Assembly: GCA_947462875.1 (NCBI GenBank)
Contig: CANHQJ010000009.1
Location: 1-64,000, forward strand
DNA from: Verrucomicrobiia bacterium
GTDB taxonomy: Bacteria; Verrucomicrobiota; Verrucomicrobiia; Verrucomicrobiales; Akkermansiaceae
Direction of reading: 5' to 3'
DNA length: 64,000 nt
A program made the translations under genes and the position numbers. Position 1 is the stretch's first letter, and each line of letters starts with the position of its first letter. This document shows, in pieces, positions 1 through 6,299 of the stretch. Under the pieces are notes generated by a model. That model searched no databases. It saw only the letters and a list, made by a program, of their open reading frames with translations, and was not told where the DNA came from.

Positions 1-103
1 CGAAGTGGAACCACCCGGTCCCATTCCGAACCCGGAAGTGAAACGCTTCAGCGCCAATGGTAGTGAGACGATAGGTCTTGTGAGAGTAGGTCGTCGCCAG
101 GTA
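1..103 (+). rRNA. rrf: 5S ribosomal RNA, 3' portion (cut by window start)
   Basis: The first hundred bases carry the conserved 5S core: CCCATTCCGAACCCGGAAG at about 21-39, GCGCCAATGGTAGT in the middle and a GAGAGTAGG arm near 82-90, ending around the GTCGCCAGG closing strand. The 5' strand of the closing helix lies outside the window. 5S RNA is part of the large ribosomal subunit. The position directly before a strong terminator fits the end of an rRNA operon. The exact 3' end is estimated. Confidence 0.93.
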
Positions 104-107
104 TATG

Positions 108-142
108 CCCCGCATTCAGCAATGAATGCGGGGCTCTTTTTT
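108..142 (+). terminator. Rho-independent terminator of the rRNA operon
   Basis: An 11-bp perfect stem (CCCCGCATTCA with TGAATGCGGGG) closes a GCAA tetraloop and is followed by CTCTTTTTT. It lies about 5 bases after the 5S end, as expected for the end of an rRNA transcription unit. Confidence 0.93.
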
Positions 143-181
143 GTACGTGTGTTTTGTGGACCACGCTGCTACTAATCCCGC

Positions 182-520
182 GTGGACGATACGAAAGAAG
201 AACGAGATCACGGATTACAGCCCTTGGACCAGTTGATGACAGAGTGGGGCATGGGCAATCACGACCTGGTGGAAGCATCTCCGGAGCAACTCAATCACAA
301 GCAAGTGCAGAAGGCGCGCAAGGGGCGGCAATTGACACTGCATACCATGCAGAAAGTCACACGCGCTCTCAATATCGCGATTTGGAACTGTCTCAATAAG
401 GAGCAGAAAGAAGCGTATTTCGAGTACCTGCATCACTGGCTTTTCAATTACGCAAAAGGCTATGTGGCCGGGCGTGTGGATCCCAATGATGCCTTGAAGG
501 CAATCGTGAAAAACCGATGA
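182..520 (+). CDS. small conserved helical protein of unknown function
   Basis: A 112-residue protein starting at GTG. It is hydrophilic and helical. The segment around residues 14-60 (LDQLMTEWGMGNHDLVEAS followed by a KARKGRQLT stretch) could be a degenerate helix-turn-helix, but no family is recognised. A TACTAA hexamer at 170-175 ends 6 bases before the GTG, a spacing seen at other first genes here, which supports this start, although no good -35 is visible. The stop codon overlaps the next start (ATGA at 517), so the gene is probably the first member of a four-gene operon ending with ribD. A link to translation or tRNA modification is guilt by association only. Confidence 0.75.
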   Translation: MDDTKEERDHGLQPLDQLMTEWGMGNHDLVEASPEQLNHKQVQKARKGRQLTLHTMQKVTRALNIAIWNCLNKEQKEAYFEYLHHWLFNYAKGYVAGRVDPNDALKAIVKNR

Positions 521-1515
521 AGCCGGTGGTCATTGTCGGCCTTGGCCTGGCTGGTGCCTGCACTGCGTGGCATTTGTGGCATAGGGGCGTTGCGTTTCGC
601 ATCATCGATTCGGGGAAACGGGGCAGTTCGCATGTGGCGGCGGGATTGGTGCATCCGGTGACGGGAAAAAACTGCACGGTGGCCGAGGGATATGCGCTCC
701 ACAGGCGGGAGGCGGAAGCGTTCTATCAGCACTGTGAGACGCTGCTGCAACAGCAGGTGTGGCATCCGTTGGAAGTGGTGCGTCTGTTAGGCAACACCGA
801 ACGGAAAAAGTTGTTGCCGAAGTTCGAGACCGGACCGGCGGCGGAGTGGGTGATCGACATGGATTTGCATGAATCGGAGCAAGGCGATATCGCGATCACA
901 TTGCGCGGTGGCGCGCGCTTGGATGTGGCGGAGTTCTTGCGCCGCAGTCGTGCGTTTTTTGGCAAGCATGGTTTGGTAGAGGAACGTGAGTTTTCAGGCG
1001 TTTCAGGGGATGCGACAACCATCTTGTGCGAGGGGGCGCAGGGGTTGATGCGAGGGCATCCGGTTGCGTGGCAGCATCGCTGTGCCAAGGGCGAAATACT
1101 TACGGTTCACGCGCCATCGTGGCGTCAGAGCCGCATGATCACCGGGCGCGGATGGTTGGTGCCGGTGGGAAACGATTGTTATAAGGTTGGTGCGACGTAT
1201 GAATGGAACCAACTGGATGAAATACCTAGCGAAAAAGGACTGCGTCACATTGAGAGCATTGCGAGGCATCTCGGTGGCGCGCATTATACGATACTGTCGC
1301 ACGATGCGGGCATACGACCGATTTTGCGGAAAAGCCAACCGGTCGCGGGAATGATATCGCCGGATGTTTACGTTTTGAACGGATTGGGTTCCAAAGGCTC
1401 GCTCCATGCGCCGTGGGCGACGCGTGCGTTGGTTGAGCATTTGTTAGATGGCGCTGCCCTGCAATCGCACTTGAGCCTCGACCATTATTTTGCCAGCCTG
1501 CGCCATTCGTCATGA
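517..1515 (+). CDS. FAD-dependent oxidoreductase of the DAO family, MnmC-oxidase/glycine-oxidase-like
   Basis: A 332-residue flavoprotein. The N-terminal Rossmann motif VGLGLAGACTAWHL (residues about 7-20) binds the ADP part of FAD, followed by the IIDSG acidic strand end and SSHVAAGLVHPVTGK, a typical second FAD contact of the D-amino-acid-oxidase superfamily. Near the C terminus, VLNGLGSKGSLHAPWATRAL matches the final FAD-binding segment. The family oxidises secondary or primary amines, and the C-terminal half of MnmC uses this fold to convert cmnm5U to nm5U in tRNA. The gene overlaps the preceding one and the following MnmM/YtqB-like methyltransferase gene by 4 bases each. That context favours a tRNA wobble-uridine oxidase, but substrate cannot be read from sequence and a glycine-oxidase-like role remains possible. 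Confidence 0.82.
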   Translation: MKPVVIVGLGLAGACTAWHLWHRGVAFRIIDSGKRGSSHVAAGLVHPVTGKNCTVAEGYALHRREAEAFYQHCETLLQQQVWHPLEVVRLLGNTERKKLLPKFETGPAAEWVIDMDLHESEQGDIAITLRGGARLDVAEFLRRSRAFFGKHGLVEEREFSGVSGDATTILCEGAQGLMRGHPVAWQHRCAKGEILTVHAPSWRQSRMITGRGWLVPVGNDCYKVGATYEWNQLDEIPSEKGLRHIESIARHLGGAHYTILSHDAGIRPILRKSQPVAGMISPDVYVLNGLGSKGSLHAPWATRALVEHLLDGAALQSHLSLDHYFASLRHSS

Positions 1516-2093
1516 GTCCGTTTGCATTTCCACGACCCACCGCGCTGGCGCACACATGGCTGACGGCTCTGCTCCGTCCGGGCGATCACGCGGTGGATGC
1601 CACCCTGGGCAACGGTCATGACGCGTTGTTTTTGGCGCAGTGTGTGGGTGTCGAGGGAAAGGTCATCGGCTTTGACATCCAGGCCGAAGCACTGGGCGCA
1701 TCGTCCCGGTTGTTGGAAAGTCATGGCATTCCGCCGCATTGTTATGAATGGCACCAGCGTTCCCATGCGTTCATGGGGGAATGCGTGAAGCAGCCTGTGA
1801 AAGCCGTGATGTTCAATCTCGGCTATTTACCCGGAGCGGATCATGGGGTGATTACCGAGGCGGATGAAACGCTGGCCGCATTGCATGCTGCGGCGCGGAT
1901 CGTGCAGGAAGGCGGGATGATCACCATCGTCTGTTACCCCGGCCACCCCGGTGGCGATAGAGAAAAAAATGCGGTGTGCGAGTGGGCCGGTCGGCAAGGA
2001 GACGGGTGGCATGTGGTGCACTATGAGAAGCATGTCACCTTGCGCCCGGCACCGATGTTGGTGGCGTTGCAGAGAAAGGAGAAAGGGCGATGA
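1512..2093 (+). CDS. class I SAM-dependent methyltransferase, YtqB/MnmM-like (rRNA_methylase family)
   Basis: A 193-residue protein with the SAM-binding motif DATLGNGHDALFLA (about residues 29-42), the acidic end of strand 2 (VIGFDIQ) and the family signature MFNLGYLPGADHGVITE (about 104-120). The last is typical of the YtqB group, formerly called rRNA methylase. YtqB of Bacillus subtilis has been reported to methylate nm5s2U to mnm5s2U at the tRNA wobble position (MnmM). The start overlaps the DAO-type oxidoreductase stop by ATGA, and the stop overlaps ribD. Together with the upstream gene it could supply, as two proteins, the two activities of the fused enterobacterial MnmC. The family call is firm and the exact substrate is inferred. 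Confidence 0.86.
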   Translation: MSPFAFPRPTALAHTWLTALLRPGDHAVDATLGNGHDALFLAQCVGVEGKVIGFDIQAEALGASSRLLESHGIPPHCYEWHQRSHAFMGECVKQPVKAVMFNLGYLPGADHGVITEADETLAALHAAARIVQEGGMITIVCYPGHPGGDREKNAVCEWAGRQGDGWHVVHYEKHVTLRPAPMLVALQRKEKGR

Positions 2094-3127
2094 ATCACGA
2101 CGAATCATGGATGGCGCTGGCCTTGCAGGAGGCTCGCAAGGGGATTGGCAGAACCGCGCCCAACCCTCCGGTGGGGGCCGTGCTCGTAAAGGATGATGTT
2201 TTGTTAGGCTGTGGCTGGCATCAAAAGGCGGGCATGCCGCATGCGGAGCGTGAGGCGATGGCCGACTGTGTGGCCCGTCATGGAGCGGACGCGTTGCGCG
2301 GCGCTACGGCCTATGTTTCGTTAGAGCCGTGCTCAACCCATGGGCGCACACCGCCCTGCGTGCAAGGATTGATTGACGCGGGGATCAAGCGTGTCGTCTA
2401 TGCGTGCGAAGACCCGAATCCGCATCACGCGGGGAGGGCCGATGTGTTGTTGGAAGCGGCAGGGATCACGGTAGGCAAAGGTGTGATGCGGGATGAGGCG
2501 CAGAAAATCCTTCGTCCTTTTGCTAAAGTGCAGCGCACCGGTCTGCCATGGGTGGTGGCAAAAATCGCGATGAGCCTGGACGGTCGCATCACTCGTCCCG
2601 AAGGGGAGGGGCAATGGCTGACGGGTGAAGCCGCCAGAAAGGATGTGCAGTTGTTACGCGGTGAGGCGGACCTCATCATGACCAGTGGCGAGACCGTGCG
2701 CAGGGACTTGCCATCCTTGACGATTCGCGAACCGGATTTGCTGCAAGGGAGGGAGCAACCATGGCGTTTGGTGCTGACGAATCAGCCGGAATCCTTGCCG
2801 CCCGGGGCCCCGTTGTTTCTGGATGAAAACCGGCATCGGACTCTTGTGCGAGGAGGTGATCTGCAAATCATTCTGCGCGAGATGGTGGCGGATCATGGTG
2901 TTCTGTCGGTCATGGTGGAGGCGGGTGGCAGGCTCGTCGCGGAACTTGCGAAACAAAATTTGTTAGATGAATGTGTCATCTATCTCGCGCCGATGATCAC
3001 CGGCGGGCTGCCGGCGATGGCGGGCATAAGCGTGCTGGATTTGGCTATGGCCGAGGCAGAGTGGGCGCGCATCGGCGATGATGTTCGCGTGCGGGCCCGC
3101 GTGCTGACGGATCAGTCCGGCAGATGA
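2090..3127 (+). CDS. ribD: bifunctional riboflavin biosynthesis protein RibD (deaminase/reductase)
   Basis: A 345-residue enzyme for the second and third steps of riboflavin synthesis: deamination of 2,5-diamino-6-ribosylamino-4(3H)-pyrimidinone 5'-phosphate, then NADPH-dependent reduction of the ribosyl side chain. The N-terminal deaminase domain has zinc ligands H51 and E53 (HAERE), C81 and C90 (EPCSTHGRTPPC). The C-terminal reductase domain, from about residue 145, begins VAKIAMSLDGRI and contains the LRGEADLIMTSGETVRRD segment. Length is close to the usual 350-380. The start is fixed by a 4-base overlap with the upstream methyltransferase gene. No FMN riboswitch is visible. Its last 16 bases overlap the 3' end of the convergent pseudokinase gene. 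The FAD product of the pathway would serve the flavoprotein encoded upstream. Confidence 0.96.
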   Translation: MNHDESWMALALQEARKGIGRTAPNPPVGAVLVKDDVLLGCGWHQKAGMPHAEREAMADCVARHGADALRGATAYVSLEPCSTHGRTPPCVQGLIDAGIKRVVYACEDPNPHHAGRADVLLEAAGITVGKGVMRDEAQKILRPFAKVQRTGLPWVVAKIAMSLDGRITRPEGEGQWLTGEAARKDVQLLRGEADLIMTSGETVRRDLPSLTIREPDLLQGREQPWRLVLTNQPESLPPGAPLFLDENRHRTLVRGGDLQIILREMVADHGVLSVMVEAGGRLVAELAKQNLLDECVIYLAPMITGGLPAMAGISVLDLAMAEAEWARIGDDVRVRARVLTDQSGR

Positions 3128-4593
3128 TCGTAGGCGATACGGAAACCGAGGTCGTCACGACGGAGGTTGCGATCGTTTGTCCACTCGCGTGCTTGCGAAC
3201 CGTTGGCAGTTTTGGCGAACGATGCGCCGATGATCACCCATTGACGGGCACCGAGAGGATTGGATGGATCGCTCGCAGGTTTGCGCGTCCACTCGCTGAC
3301 TCCGCCCGCCATGCCGAAAATTCCCGCTCCATTTTTATCGAGTGACTTGACGTCCGCCCAGCCGCCCGGTTTCAAGGCGAGCGGGTCCTGCGTTTGCAGG
3401 CGCATTGCGGCGAACCACTCTTCCTGGCTGGGGAGGCGGGCGCGTTTCCATTCACAGTAGGCATGGGCATCCCACCAATCGACTCCAAAAACCGGGCAGT
3501 TCAGCGATAGCGGCCGGTTTTTCCAGGTTTGACCTTTTTCCGCTGCGGCGAGGATGGCGCTCCAATTCTCGGTTTCATGCGAGACTTTGGTGGGTGGTTG
3601 AGATTCGTGGTCGTAAATTTTCCGCTGTTCATCATCGAGTACTTTCAGCGAATCGAGAAATTCGCGGTATTCACCAATCGTCACCTCATGGGCAGACATC
3701 CAGAATTTTCTGATTTTGTTCGAGTTACCATCGGGATCAGGGTACTGGCCTTCGGGAATGAGGATGGGCTCATCCAGTGTGAGGTGTGGTTGGGGCTTGG
3801 TGCGTTTGCCCTGCGAGAGAATCAAGACCAAAAGAACGACCACGGCGGCAGCGGCGATGCCTATGATCCAAGGCAAAGGATTGCTTTTTTTCACAACCGT
3901 TAGTTTGGGATGGGTTGTGGACTGCATCGGCACCACGGGAGTGGCCAGTTGCTGCTCGATCTGATCGGCATAATGCCGGATTTCCTTCCACGGCAACACA
4001 TGCTCCGGATCCTTGCCGGTCATCCAATGGAGCAAGGTTTGCAATCGAGTGTAGCCGGGGGCTCCGGGTTCTAACAAAGGAAGCAAAGTGGACCCCAGTT
4101 CCGCCATGTCGATCGCGGATGAGTTTTCACTGCGCGTTCCTGATTTTGCCAGATTCGAGAGGCGCAGCACATTCTGTTCGTTGAGATAAATGTGGGAGGG
4201 CCTGAGCACATCGGTGGCCGTGCCGCGTTCTTCCAGGTGCATGCTGGCTTCCGCCACGCGTTTGATGATATGGGCCAACTGTGCGGGCTTGAGTGTGATT
4301 CCGTTTGCCATCATGGCGGAGAGGCTTTCGCCCGGCAACCATTCGCGGGTAAAAAGGCAGTGATCACCGTCATTGATGGCCTCATAGACAGAAGCGATGA
4401 GGGGATGATCGACGCTGGCTTTGGCGCGCACGGAGGCGATGAATTCATCACGATGATCCGAGTTCAGATCGCGCAGTTGTTCCAGCACGACGTTGCGCCG
4501 AACCGACACCTGTTCGGCGAGCCAGATGCTCGTGTGTTCGTTCTCGCCGAGAAGTTTGCTGAGCTTGTAGTCGTTAGGTGGGAAAAAGGGCAT
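3112..4593 (-). CDS. pseudokinase - transmembrane - formylglycine-generating-enzyme-like (SUMF1) protein
   Basis: A 493-residue protein with three parts. Residues about 9-215 follow the Ser/Thr kinase fold but the catalytic residues are missing: the HRDLKPSN loop reads TDVLRPSH (127-134), the DFG region reads LSNLAK (145-150) and the VAIK lysine region reads VVLEQL. It should therefore bind or sense rather than phosphorylate. A single membrane helix (about 240-260, IIGIAAAAVVVLLVLIL) follows. Residues about 278-490 are a SUMF1/FGE domain with EVTIGEYREFLDSL, GVDWWDAHAYCEWKRARLPS, GMAGGVSEW and LGFRIAYD. The DUF323/FGE fold is often non-catalytic in PVC bacteria. The 3' end overlaps ribD tail to tail. 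The upstream neighbour is 74 bases away on the same strand. Confidence 0.85.
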   Translation of the reverse strand: MPFFPPNDYKLSKLLGENEHTSIWLAEQVSVRRNVVLEQLRDLNSDHRDEFIASVRAKASVDHPLIASVYEAINDGDHCLFTREWLPGESLSAMMANGITLKPAQLAHIIKRVAEASMHLEERGTATDVLRPSHIYLNEQNVLRLSNLAKSGTRSENSSAIDMAELGSTLLPLLEPGAPGYTRLQTLLHWMTGKDPEHVLPWKEIRHYADQIEQQLATPVVPMQSTTHPKLTVVKKSNPLPWIIGIAAAAVVVLLVLILSQGKRTKPQPHLTLDEPILIPEGQYPDPDGNSNKIRKFWMSAHEVTIGEYREFLDSLKVLDDEQRKIYDHESQPPTKVSHETENWSAILAAAEKGQTWKNRPLSLNCPVFGVDWWDAHAYCEWKRARLPSQEEWFAAMRLQTQDPLALKPGGWADVKSLDKNGAGIFGMAGGVSEWTRKPASDPSNPLGARQWVIIGASFAKTANGSQAREWTNDRNLRRDDLGFRIAYDHLPD

Positions 4594-4667: not shown

Positions 4668-6299
4668 TCAGAGTTGGTGATGAGCTCCGCCCAGGATGCT
4701 GTGGGCCATAAAACCATGATTGGCCAGAATGCGCGCGGCGAAATAACTGGTTTTGCCCATTTGGCAAATCGTATACACGGGTTGGCTGCGATCGAGTTCA
4801 TCGAGGCGGTTTCGCAGTTGCATGAGCGGGATGTTGATCGCTCCGGGCACGGGTTGACTCGCCGCGGTCGCGGCCGGGCGCACATCGACGATTTGGGCGC
4901 CTGCCTCGGCGATGCCGGGGATGGGAAGCAGGAATCCATCGCGGATATTGCAGGCCGCGAATCCGGCGATATTGATCACATCCTTCGCGCTGCCGAAGGG
5001 CGGTGCGTAGGCCAGTTCCAGATGCGCCAGATCGCTGATGGTGAGATTTCCGCGTATGGCCGTGGCGATGACGTCGAGCCGTTTATCGACTCCGTCCTTG
5101 CCCACTGCCTGCGCTCCCAGGATGCGACCGTCCTCGGGATTCCACAGCAACTTGAGAGTGACCGTTTCCGCACCCGGGTAATAGCTGGCGTGGGACGCGG
5201 CGTTGACCGTAACGGTTTGATAGGGACGCCCGGCTTGCTGGAGGCGTTTTTCACTCCATCCGGTAATGCCCGCACTGGTGTCAAACACGCGCACGATCGC
5301 CGTGCCGATGCTGCCGGGATAGGGCAAAGCGCGTTCCCCCATGAAAATATGATCGGCGGCAGTTCTGCCTTGCCGATTGGCGGGACCGGCGAGGGCGATC
5401 GCGACCGGCACGTCAAAAATCGGATCGAAAGTCTCGCAGGCATCGCCCACTGCGTAAATAGCCGGATCGCTGGTTTGTTGCCAGGCATTCGTGACGATGT
5501 GACCACGAGTTCCGAGTGCGAGACCGGCGTTTTTCGCCAAGGCGTTTTCCGGGGTGACGCCGATGGAGAGAATCACGAGATCGGCGGCGAGTTTTTGTCC
5601 GGATTGCAGGACGGCGTTCAGCGATGCGTTTTCTGTTTCGAAGCCGGCAATGCCATCATTGATAATGAGACGGACGCCGTGCTTTTCAAGTGCTTTCTCC
5701 AGCGGGCGCACCATCGGTTGATCCAGCAAAGGGAGCACTTGCGGATTGCGCTCGATCAGAGTGACGGACTTGCCCAAGTGAATCAGTTGCTCGGCCATTT
5801 CCAGACCGATGAAGCCGGCGCCGATCACGAGAACCTGATGGGCTTGTTCCGCAGCGGCTTTGATGCGATCCGTATCCTGCAAATTCCGCAAGGTCATGAT
5901 GCGTTCATCGTCAATGCCGGGCATGGCAGGCACGAGAGGCCTTGCGCCGGGTGAGAGAATCAATTGATCGTAGGCGAGAGTATCGTCCGTGCCGCTGGTC
6001 ACATCTCGCACCTGGATGGTCTTGTTGACGCGGTCGATGGCAATGGCCTCGGTGAGGGTGCGGACATCGAGATTGAGCAAATCGCGCAGACTTTGGGGCG
6101 TCTGCACGTTCAGCTCGGCGCGATCGCTGATCTCGCCGCCGATGTGATAAGGGAGACCGCAATTCGCAAACGAAACATCCGGTCCGCGTTCCAGCAGAAT
6201 GATGTGGGCGTTTTCGCTGTGGCGACGGGCGCGGGCGGCGGCGGAGGCACCACCAGCGACGCCGCCGACGATGATGATGGTGTGTGTGGACTGATTCAT
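4668..6299 (-). CDS. CoA-disulfide reductase with C-terminal rhodanese domain (CoADR-RHD)
   Basis: A 543-residue flavin disulfide reductase. It has the N-terminal FAD motif VGGVAGGASAAARARR (11-26), the single redox cysteine C47 in SFANCGLPYHIGG, the NAD(P)-binding motif VIGAGFIGLEMAE (about 158-170), the second FAD motif IYAVGDACE (about 291-299) and the dimerisation domain. After about residue 455 a rhodanese domain follows, with active cysteine C512 in CQMGKTSY. Such fusions reduce CoA disulfide, CoA persulfide or polysulfide, with the rhodanese delivering sulfane sulfur. The gene starts 3 bases after the ArsR-family gene, so both form one operon read from the promoter at 6630-6651. Protection against thiol, persulfide or metalloid stress is the likely role. 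Confidence 0.92.
   Translation of the reverse strand: MNQSTHTIIIVGGVAGGASAAARARRHSENAHIILLERGPDVSFANCGLPYHIGGEISDRAELNVQTPQSLRDLLNLDVRTLTEAIAIDRVNKTIQVRDVTSGTDDTLAYDQLILSPGARPLVPAMPGIDDERIMTLRNLQDTDRIKAAAEQAHQVLVIGAGFIGLEMAEQLIHLGKSVTLIERNPQVLPLLDQPMVRPLEKALEKHGVRLIINDGIAGFETENASLNAVLQSGQKLAADLVILSIGVTPENALAKNAGLALGTRGHIVTNAWQQTSDPAIYAVGDACETFDPIFDVPVAIALAGPANRQGRTAADHIFMGERALPYPGSIGTAIVRVFDTSAGITGWSEKRLQQAGRPYQTVTVNAASHASYYPGAETVTLKLLWNPEDGRILGAQAVGKDGVDKRLDVIATAIRGNLTISDLAHLELAYAPPFGSAKDVINIAGFAACNIRDGFLLPIPGIAEAGAQIVDVRPAATAASQPVPGAINIPLMQLRNRLDELDRSQPVYTICQMGKTSYFAARILANHGFMAHSILGGAHHQL

Follow-up and report, generated by a model that had tools for sequence, protein, structure and literature searches.

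In Escherichia coli, the last two steps in the synthesis of 5-methylaminomethyl-(2-thio)uridine at position 34 of transfer RNA (tRNA), mnm5(s2)U34, are united in MnmC, a single polypeptide in which the methyltransferase part, MnmC2, precedes the flavin-dependent oxidase part, MnmC1 or MnmC(o). The enzyme converts the 5-carboxymethylaminomethyl form (cmnm5(s2)U) to the 5-aminomethyl form (nm5(s2)U) and then to mnm5(s2)U. A different arrangement is said to exist in Bacillus and Streptococcus, where the methyltransferase MnmM (YtqB) works with a separate first-step enzyme; Jaroch et al. 2024 reportedly identified the radical S-adenosylmethionine (SAM) protein MnmL (= YtqA) as the enzyme of the cmnm5 step in B. 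subtilis and S. mutans. The same study is said to mention fusion proteins and alternate arrangements and may already hold part of the present findings. Here, we analyse a stretch of 64,000 nucleotides from a Verrucomicrobiia bacterium (the window), in which a gene for a flavin adenine dinucleotide (FAD) oxidase overlaps a gene for an MnmM-family methyltransferase. We propose, with a probability of roughly 80 percent, that these two separate proteins together carry out the last two steps of mnm5(s2)U34 synthesis.

The question of how MnmM is supplied with its substrate has been raised before. In Cho et al. 2023 (PMC9976899), the MnmC(o)-like partner of MnmM is stated as unknown in 2023, and no fusion or operon of oxidase and methyltransferase is reported in the species compared. 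A review (PMC12548931) names MnmL alongside MnmC, with a citation of Jaroch et al. 2024. In the excerpts covered, which are not the whole literature, we found no FAD oxidase named as the partner of MnmM.

Similar to E. coli MnmC, the window pair would perform the same two reactions, employs a FAD oxidase of the DAO fold with a G-L-G-S-K/R-G motif that groups with MnmC(o), and has relatives in which oxidase and methyltransferase are fused. In contrast to MnmC, the two activities reside in two open reading frames (ORFs) instead of one polypeptide, the methyltransferase is MnmM rather than MnmC2, the oxidase scores under the curated MnmC1 cut-off, and the ten fusions found among relatives place the oxidase before the methyltransferase, which is the reverse of MnmC. 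With the MnmL-MnmM pathway reported from Bacillus and Streptococcus, the locus shares MnmM and a separate first-step enzyme, whereas a FAD oxidase would here replace the radical-SAM protein in the first step. MnmM itself resembles its B. subtilis counterpart in profile, fold relatives, and five of seven key residues, but carries His in place of K11 and K110 and is paired with a flavin oxidase. The glycine oxidase ThiO and the iminodiacetate oxidase IdaA (6pxs) share with the window oxidase the fold and the Arg of the RP motif; the window protein differs from them by the lack of a GHFRNG-type motif, a score under the ThiO cut-off, and a clade separate from glycine oxidases. Iminodiacetate, the substrate of IdaA, is an N-carboxymethyl secondary amine and thereby a close chemical analogue of cmnm5U.

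The two genes and their junction are:

517..1515, + strand: DAO-family FAD oxidase ORF, 332 amino acids, ATG start
1512..2093, + strand: MnmM (YtqB) ORF, 193 amino acids, ATG start
1512..1515, + strand: ATGA start/stop overlap between the oxidase and MnmM genes, read from the sequence

A DAO-type flavoprotein gene overlapping an MnmM/YtqB-like gene by ATGA had been noted in a preliminary description of this DNA, and Pfam, NCBIfam and the sequence confirm both genes at these coordinates. The overlap would couple translation of the two ORFs. The 517-1515 product matches Pfam DAO (PF01266) with 66.1 bits (cut-off 27.9), and the 1512-2093 product matches Pfam rRNA_methylase (PF06962) with 129.9 bits (cut-off 22.7) and the NCBIfam MnmM model NF053511 with 182.2 bits (curated cut-off 135). 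Relatives of the latter in the PDB include the YtqB/MnmM structures 4pon, 8h0s, and 8h1a, next to entries named rRNA methylase. Judged by its sequence, the window methyltransferase is a member of the MnmM family and not MnmC2.

A strong functional link between oxidase and MnmM is indicated by their distribution. We searched 387 Verrucomicrobiota genomes, applying a limit of E 1e-25 for the oxidase and for TIGR01212, a family which presumably covers YtqA/MnmL, and the curated cut-off for MnmM. MnmM scored over its cut-off in 62 genomes, the oxidase was present in 83, and TIGR01212 in 94. Each of the 62 MnmM genomes, which represent 30 genera, also carries the oxidase, and MnmM without the oxidase occurs in none; TIGR01212 is present in only five of the 62. 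Given that TIGR01212 also matches in E. coli, this model is not specific to MnmL. At a loose limit of E 0.001, NF053511 matches 243 of the 387 genomes, and the matches beyond the 62 were left out because their scores, 42 bits or less, were taken for other methyltransferases. The two genes are neighbours in 21 of the 62 genomes (four times in one open frame of 551-559 amino acids), lie apart on one contig and strand in nine (2.7 kb once, otherwise at least 100 kb), and are found on other contigs or strands in 32, where contig breaks may hide a few neighbours. Since oxidase and MnmM are not adjacent, as assembled, in 41 of the 62 genomes, linkage does not explain their co-occurrence. One genus of the window's own family (g2) holds both genes in 13 of 23 genomes, neither in nine, and the oxidase only in one, with the genes adjacent in none of the 13; the nine genomes without either gene may be one lineage, so a single joint loss is possible. 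This genus, perhaps Akkermansia-like, with both genes in 13/23 genomes and neither in 9/23, offers a natural comparison for tRNA modification.

Co-occurrence extends beyond this phylum. A second sample comprised 324 genomes from the phylum of G427, a genome chosen as the centre for carrying a fusion (oxidase limit E 1e-20); given that G427 is the genome of a Schlesneria locus, the phylum is Planctomycetota. MnmM exceeded its cut-off in 23 of these genomes and the oxidase was found in 18 (weakest match 3.4e-67), all 18 of which carry MnmM: adjacent in 12, fused in three, and apart in three. In a third set of 23 genomes, reached via oxidase loci and mostly from outside Verrucomicrobiota, MnmM was over its cut-off in 16 and present in pieces below the cut-off in one, and two Bacteroidota genomes (G430, G432) carry MnmC2 instead of MnmM. 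The 16 include two Methylobacter genomes and one of Ghiorsea, in which no PF05430 (MnmC2) match was found.

Gene neighbourhood provides a further line of evidence. When genome contigs were scanned with the alignment of the oxidase family, at least 553 loci were obtained; the best 80, from five phyla, were kept (the 80 related loci). MnmM lies directly 3' of the oxidase in 33 of them and is fused to it in one ORF in six; among the remaining 41, seven carry MnmM on the same strand at a distance of approximately 0.6-3.2 kb downstream, 30 lack it (judged with at least 700 bases of downstream sequence seen), and in four the downstream sequence is too short to judge. Of the 39 adjacent or fused loci, 28 lie in Verrucomicrobiota, seven in Planctomycetota, three in Pseudomonadota, and one in Acidobacteriota; the three Bacteroidota loci among the 80 show no adjacent MnmM. 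With 33 adjacent and six fused loci in four phyla, the shared neighbourhood of oxidase and MnmM is more than chance. The ATGA overlap (gap -1) recurs as well, for example at L049, L073, L075, L085, L091, L109, L197-L202, and L205. Within the order of the window, its oxidase as query matched 51 of 57 genomes; 30 of these order-level loci were taken, the window among them, and tblastn finds MnmM in 13 of the 29 others. These loci and the 80 related loci apparently share some genomes, and the two sets are not independent.

Oxidase-MnmM fusions were found as ten distinct single ORFs of 538-621 amino acids, with the oxidase domain first, MnmM second, and linkers of 1-25 residues by profile envelopes. 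Six come from Planctomycetota (L096, L108, L124, L127, L196, L210; the last two from the sample centred on G427), one from Acidobacteriota (L099, on a 5.99-Mb record), and three from Verrucomicrobiota (L111, L140, L148). When the fusion label is placed on the larger, 83-row oxidase tree described below, seven changes are needed, at least four of them forced by starred branches, which indicates that fusion (or splitting) occurred repeatedly. None of the four genomes with a long oxidase-MnmM frame (G261, G326, G347, G376) has a PF05430 match.

The preliminary description had proposed to place the oxidase by phylogeny relative to MnmC(o) and glycine oxidase, and in our trees it groups with MnmC(o), not with the glycine oxidases, as a clade of its own. 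The smaller tree has 46 rows, including 32 of 71 oxidase-family rows, two PDB glycine oxidases, and PDB 22zt, with the Paracoccaceae ThiO left out. In this tree, the oxidase family is monophyletic (32 rows, support 100/99), the five MnmC(o) rows form a separate clade (99/98), and both join together with 22zt at 98/91, apart from 1ryi, 7cyx, the P. veronii ThiO, a Halomonas relative, a Listeria oxidoreductase, and DadA. The window oxidase thus lies outside the MnmC(o) clade. The larger tree, which includes a very long Paracoccaceae ThiO branch, agrees on the grouping with MnmC(o) (98/97), and the ThiO branch also falls inside the group. Rows of odd letter make-up were flagged in both trees, and IdaA is in neither. 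The earlier suggestion of an MnmC split into two proteins finds support in its functional part, by virtue of the co-occurrence in 62 of 62 genomes, the fusions, and the presence of mnmE and mnmG, but not as a statement about descent: the methyltransferase is MnmM, not MnmC2, and the oxidase forms a clade beside MnmC(o).

An invariant arginine of the oxidase is consistent with a carboxylate-bearing substrate. Arg267 is kept in 160 of 160 distinct family rows, in all of which position 293 is K or R. In the alignment, Arg267 falls on the LRP-motif Arg of 1ryi, the glycine oxidase from B. subtilis (residue 315 in the sequence record); we take this Arg to be Arg302, the binder of the substrate carboxylate. 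Towards the C-terminus, the family carries N-G-L-G-S-K-G where MnmC from E. coli and Y. pestis has A/G-L-G-S-R-G and 1ryi has G-H-F-R-N-G; the pattern G-L-G-S-K/R-G is found in 145 of 161 distinct family proteins and 5/5 MnmC(o), compared with 0/4 of the ThiO group and 0/3 DadA. The chain PDB 22zt_A, labelled as a predicted D-amino acid dehydrogenase, carries GLGSKG and sits on a long branch within the group that also holds MnmC(o) and the oxidase family; its name may be wrong.

In NCBIfam, the oxidase scores under the cut-offs of both TIGR03197 (MnmC1; 54.1 vs 174.2 bits) and TIGR02352 (ThiO; 67.4 vs 250.8 bits), and none of seven further family members exceeds any oxidase cut-off (best MnmC1 score 92.1, best ThiO score 111.5). 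An AlphaFold2 model built with 51 sequences reached a mean predicted local distance difference test (pLDDT) of 96.4. Foldseek ranked IdaA (6pxs) at the top, followed by glycine oxidases, with MnmC first appearing at rank 15; in VIA-align, glycine oxidase reached a Z value of 33.6, IdaA 31.8, E. coli MnmC 31.4, and sarcosine oxidases 28-29. Given that glycine oxidase, IdaA, and MnmC obtain comparable Z values, the fold alone does not decide.

According to Cho et al. 2023 (PMC9976899), mutation of K11, D34, N101, Y104, K110, Y141, or H144 leaves a near-inactive B. subtilis MnmM, and the enzyme keeps little activity when K11 or K110 is changed to Glu. We mapped these residues through an alignment to 4pon, using an offset of 6 derived from N101, onto H14, D37, N102, Y105, H111, Y142, and H145 of the window protein. 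Five of the seven are kept (D37, N102, Y105, Y142, H145); the K11-H14 correspondence is less sure, as the alignment was extended there without gaps. Over 95 distinct MnmM rows, the window included, N102 and Y142 occur in 95, D37 and H145 in 94, and Y105 in 92. At position 111, 56 rows have K, 31 have H, and seven have R; at position 14, 66 have H, 20 have Q, and four have K. MnmM is predicted to be active here with two His in place of Lys.

The window's genome (3.95 Mb, 39 contigs, 97.7 percent complete) encodes the upstream part of the pathway. Absence of mnmE and mnmG had been named in advance as an observation that would speak against the pair acting on tRNA; both genes were found, mnmG with 766 bits (cut-off 525) and mnmE with 341 bits (cut-off 253). 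A search of the same genome with TIGR01212 gave no match above the cut-off (best 20.9 vs 180 bits), and PF05430 gave none at E 1e-6. In the pathway we propose, MnmE and MnmG would place cmnm5 on U34, after which Arg267 of the oxidase might bind the glycine-like N-carboxymethyl tail while FAD oxidises the N-CH2 bond. Hydrolysis of the imine would release glyoxylate and leave nm5(s2)U, a prediction drawn from the fold, the residues, and the known chemistry of MnmC(o) and glycine oxidase. The oxidase would thus act on cmnm5(s2)U34 in tRNA. MnmM, as known for the B. subtilis enzyme and predicted here from family membership and conserved residues, would then methylate the amine of nm5(s2)U34 with SAM. 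Relatives would have fused both proteins into an MnmC-like bifunctional enzyme, with a different methyltransferase and the opposite domain order.

Other assignments of the oxidase have to be weighed against this proposal. It could be a ThiO-type glycine oxidase of thiamine synthesis that stands beside MnmM by accident of operon structure: ThiO is its best NCBIfam match (67 bits), and glycine oxidases are both the top structural matches by Z (33.6) and the best PDB sequence matches. That score, however, compares with a cut-off of 250.8 bits, and no thi gene is present among the three neighbours scanned, the thiamine pathway elsewhere in the genome not having been searched. The co-occurrence with MnmM in 62 of 62 genomes and the MnmM fusions also speak against it, and in the tree the family joins MnmC(o) and stands apart from 1ryi, 7cyx, and the P. 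veronii ThiO, although the long Paracoccaceae ThiO branch is nearby in the larger tree. Based on cut-off, motif, co-occurrence, fusions, and tree, we rejected glycine oxidase as the principal assignment and regard it as very unlikely. It is also quite improbable that MnmM uses nm5U made directly by MnmEG from ammonium and that the oxidase has a different small amine as its substrate or serves another step of the pathway. E. coli MnmEG can form nm5U with ammonium (PMC3936742, PMC3648344). Recurrent fusion and co-occurrence nevertheless suggest that oxidase and MnmM share a pathway. The invariant Arg267, given the carboxylate-binding role of its presumed counterpart in glycine oxidase, fits a carboxylate-bearing substrate such as cmnm5U. 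The same residue, if it binds a carboxylate, would be useless on mnm5U and thus argues against an eraser that demethylates mnm5(s2)U to nm5(s2)U in the way sarcosine oxidases demethylate N-methyl amines. Such an activity would be in keeping with the superfamily shared with sarcosine oxidases (Z 28-29) and with the presence of the oxidase in 62/62 genomes of the phylum sample that have the methylase. However, no MnmC2 or TIGR01212 protein was found in the window's genome for the step removing the carboxymethyl group, and the oxidase family sits beside MnmC(o), which makes an eraser scarcely credible.

Several observations weigh against a two-protein system for mnm5(s2)U34. The curated MnmC1 and ThiO models both miss the oxidase, with the ThiO score slightly higher, and its nearest solved structures are glycine oxidases, slightly ahead of MnmC. 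The grouping with MnmC(o) includes the long branch of PDB 22zt, and the tree tool warns that such joins may be false; since 22zt also carries the G-L-G-S-K/R-G motif, the motif is no proof of a tRNA substrate. In MnmM, the lysines K11 and K110 of the B. subtilis enzyme are His14 and His111. With respect to distribution, the Fisher p value for co-occurrence (5e-54) takes no account of relatedness, the 62 MnmM genomes of the phylum sample all fall in the window's own class, and no MnmM is near the oxidase in the 30 related loci mentioned above. Oxidase and methyltransferase also occur apart. Five Planctomycetota genomes carry MnmM without the oxidase (L213-L217; G463, G504, G517, G553, G705), and a Pfam scan of some neighbour genes at these loci gave no pathway-like first-step candidate. 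Conversely, four of the 23 genomes reached via oxidase loci have neither MnmM nor MnmC2 (G424, G428, G438, G440), and eight of the 83 Verrucomicrobiota oxidase genomes lack all three methyltransferase forms considered here, namely MnmM, stand-alone MnmC2, and an MnmC2-like domain in a long ORF (G136, G188, G211, G223, G233, G308, G341, G412).

The other 13 of the 21 oxidase genomes without MnmM carry another nm5U methyltransferase candidate. Of 80 chosen genomes searched for PF05430, 17 have a match. Stand-alone MnmC2 is present in all six oxidase genomes of one family (f32), in frames of 255-326 amino acids, and an MnmC2-like domain resides within a long ORF in seven of the 12 oxidase-only genomes of another (f9). 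Two of eight long PF05430 ORFs were scanned, from G394 (f9) and G146 (f13), and both consist of Tgt followed by a C-terminal MnmC2-like domain; in NCBIfam, the G394 ORF scores 452.5 bits for Tgt (cut-off 306.75) and 61.4 for MnmC2 (cut-off 136). Tgt is queuine tRNA-ribosyltransferase and also acts at position 34. The eight ORFs, from f9 and from G146, are:

L169:1-1959 and L172:1-1953: Tgt and MnmC2-like domain in a single ORF, scanned
L167, L168, L170, L171, L173, L174: candidates for the same arrangement, by length and ORF layout only

We had considered the 690-730 amino acid PF05430 ORFs of f9 as bifunctional MnmC and rejected this, given that the oxidase profile matches at 0/8 loci and that the two scanned are Tgt with an MnmC2-like domain.

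Four + strand ORFs follow each other in series at this locus (182-520, 517-1515, 1512-2093, 2090-3127), with an ATGA overlap at each junction. The surrounding features are:

1-102: 5S rRNA gene, by sequence match; the window begins inside it
107..134, + strand: terminator-like hairpin 3' of the 5S rRNA gene, marking the upstream boundary of the gene group
182..520, + strand: small upstream ORF, 112 amino acids, GTG start
517..520, + strand: ATGA start/stop overlap between the upstream ORF and the oxidase gene, read from the sequence
2090..3127, + strand: ribD (riboflavin biosynthesis), 345 amino acids; TIGR00326 288.9 bits vs cut-off 156.35

Terminator-like sites in 1-3400 number two, compared with 2.9 expected from shuffles, and the hairpin at 107-134 is weak alone. 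The GTG start of the small upstream gene lies only 47 bases past this hairpin and agrees with an alignment of 21 sequences. Its product matches no Pfam family above the cut-off, and no Pfam family matches more than three of the 21 family members even at E 0.05. The structural model (mean pLDDT 90.0) resembles lambda-repressor-like proteins, with best Z values of 6.9 (over 64 residues) and 6.0 to helix-turn-helix proteins; these values are modest, yet helix-turn-helix proteins make up most top rows. The modelled protein hence looks like a helix-turn-helix protein. It is likely co-transcribed with the oxidase and may act as a regulator expressed together with the operon. A homologue adjoins the oxidase in 23 of the 80 related loci. 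The preliminary description had entertained this gene as a third member of the pathway; we find no sign of an enzyme, and with a helix-turn-helix-like model and patchy linkage to the oxidase, this role was dropped. Relatives of the gene also occur approximately 3 kb from the oxidase on the opposite strand (L077, L079).

On the other side, ribD overlaps MnmM by ATGA and was considered as a functional partner supplying FAD. It matches at E 1e-10 in just four of the 80 related loci (L049, L050, L051, L053), and we abandoned the idea: ribD is a neighbour without conserved partnership. A scan of the window for tRNA genes found none, and no plasmid match was obtained when the window's oxidase served as query. 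Further downstream, at 6097-6265, the Rfam family V_AS7 (a Vibrio antisense RNA) matches with a score of 91 (gathering threshold 90), antisense to the long ORF 4668-6299; this match is probably an echo of conserved coding sequence.

Beyond the window, we lean towards a broader interpretation. The stand-alone FAD oxidases, an as yet unnamed family, might serve as a modular enzyme for the first of these two steps towards mnm5U34 in Verrucomicrobiota, Planctomycetota, Acidobacteriota, some Proteobacteria, and Bacteroidota, partnered by MnmM, by stand-alone MnmC2, or by an MnmC2-like domain fused to Tgt. Its repeated fusion to MnmM would then amount to a convergent MnmC with reverse domain order. 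Cho et al. 2023 predicted a missing MnmC(o)-like activity for organisms that carry MnmM or an orphan MnmC2, and the family might account for it, at least in part. If this is correct, several other phyla would have found an answer different from the radical-SAM protein for the enzyme that feeds MnmM. Annotators could name a conserved family missed by the curated models tried here, and mnm5U34 would become predictable in genomes seemingly without MnmC. More generally, these findings suggest that bacteria drew on different enzymes to build one and the same two-step wobble chemistry, and that fusion of these enzymes took place on more than one occasion.

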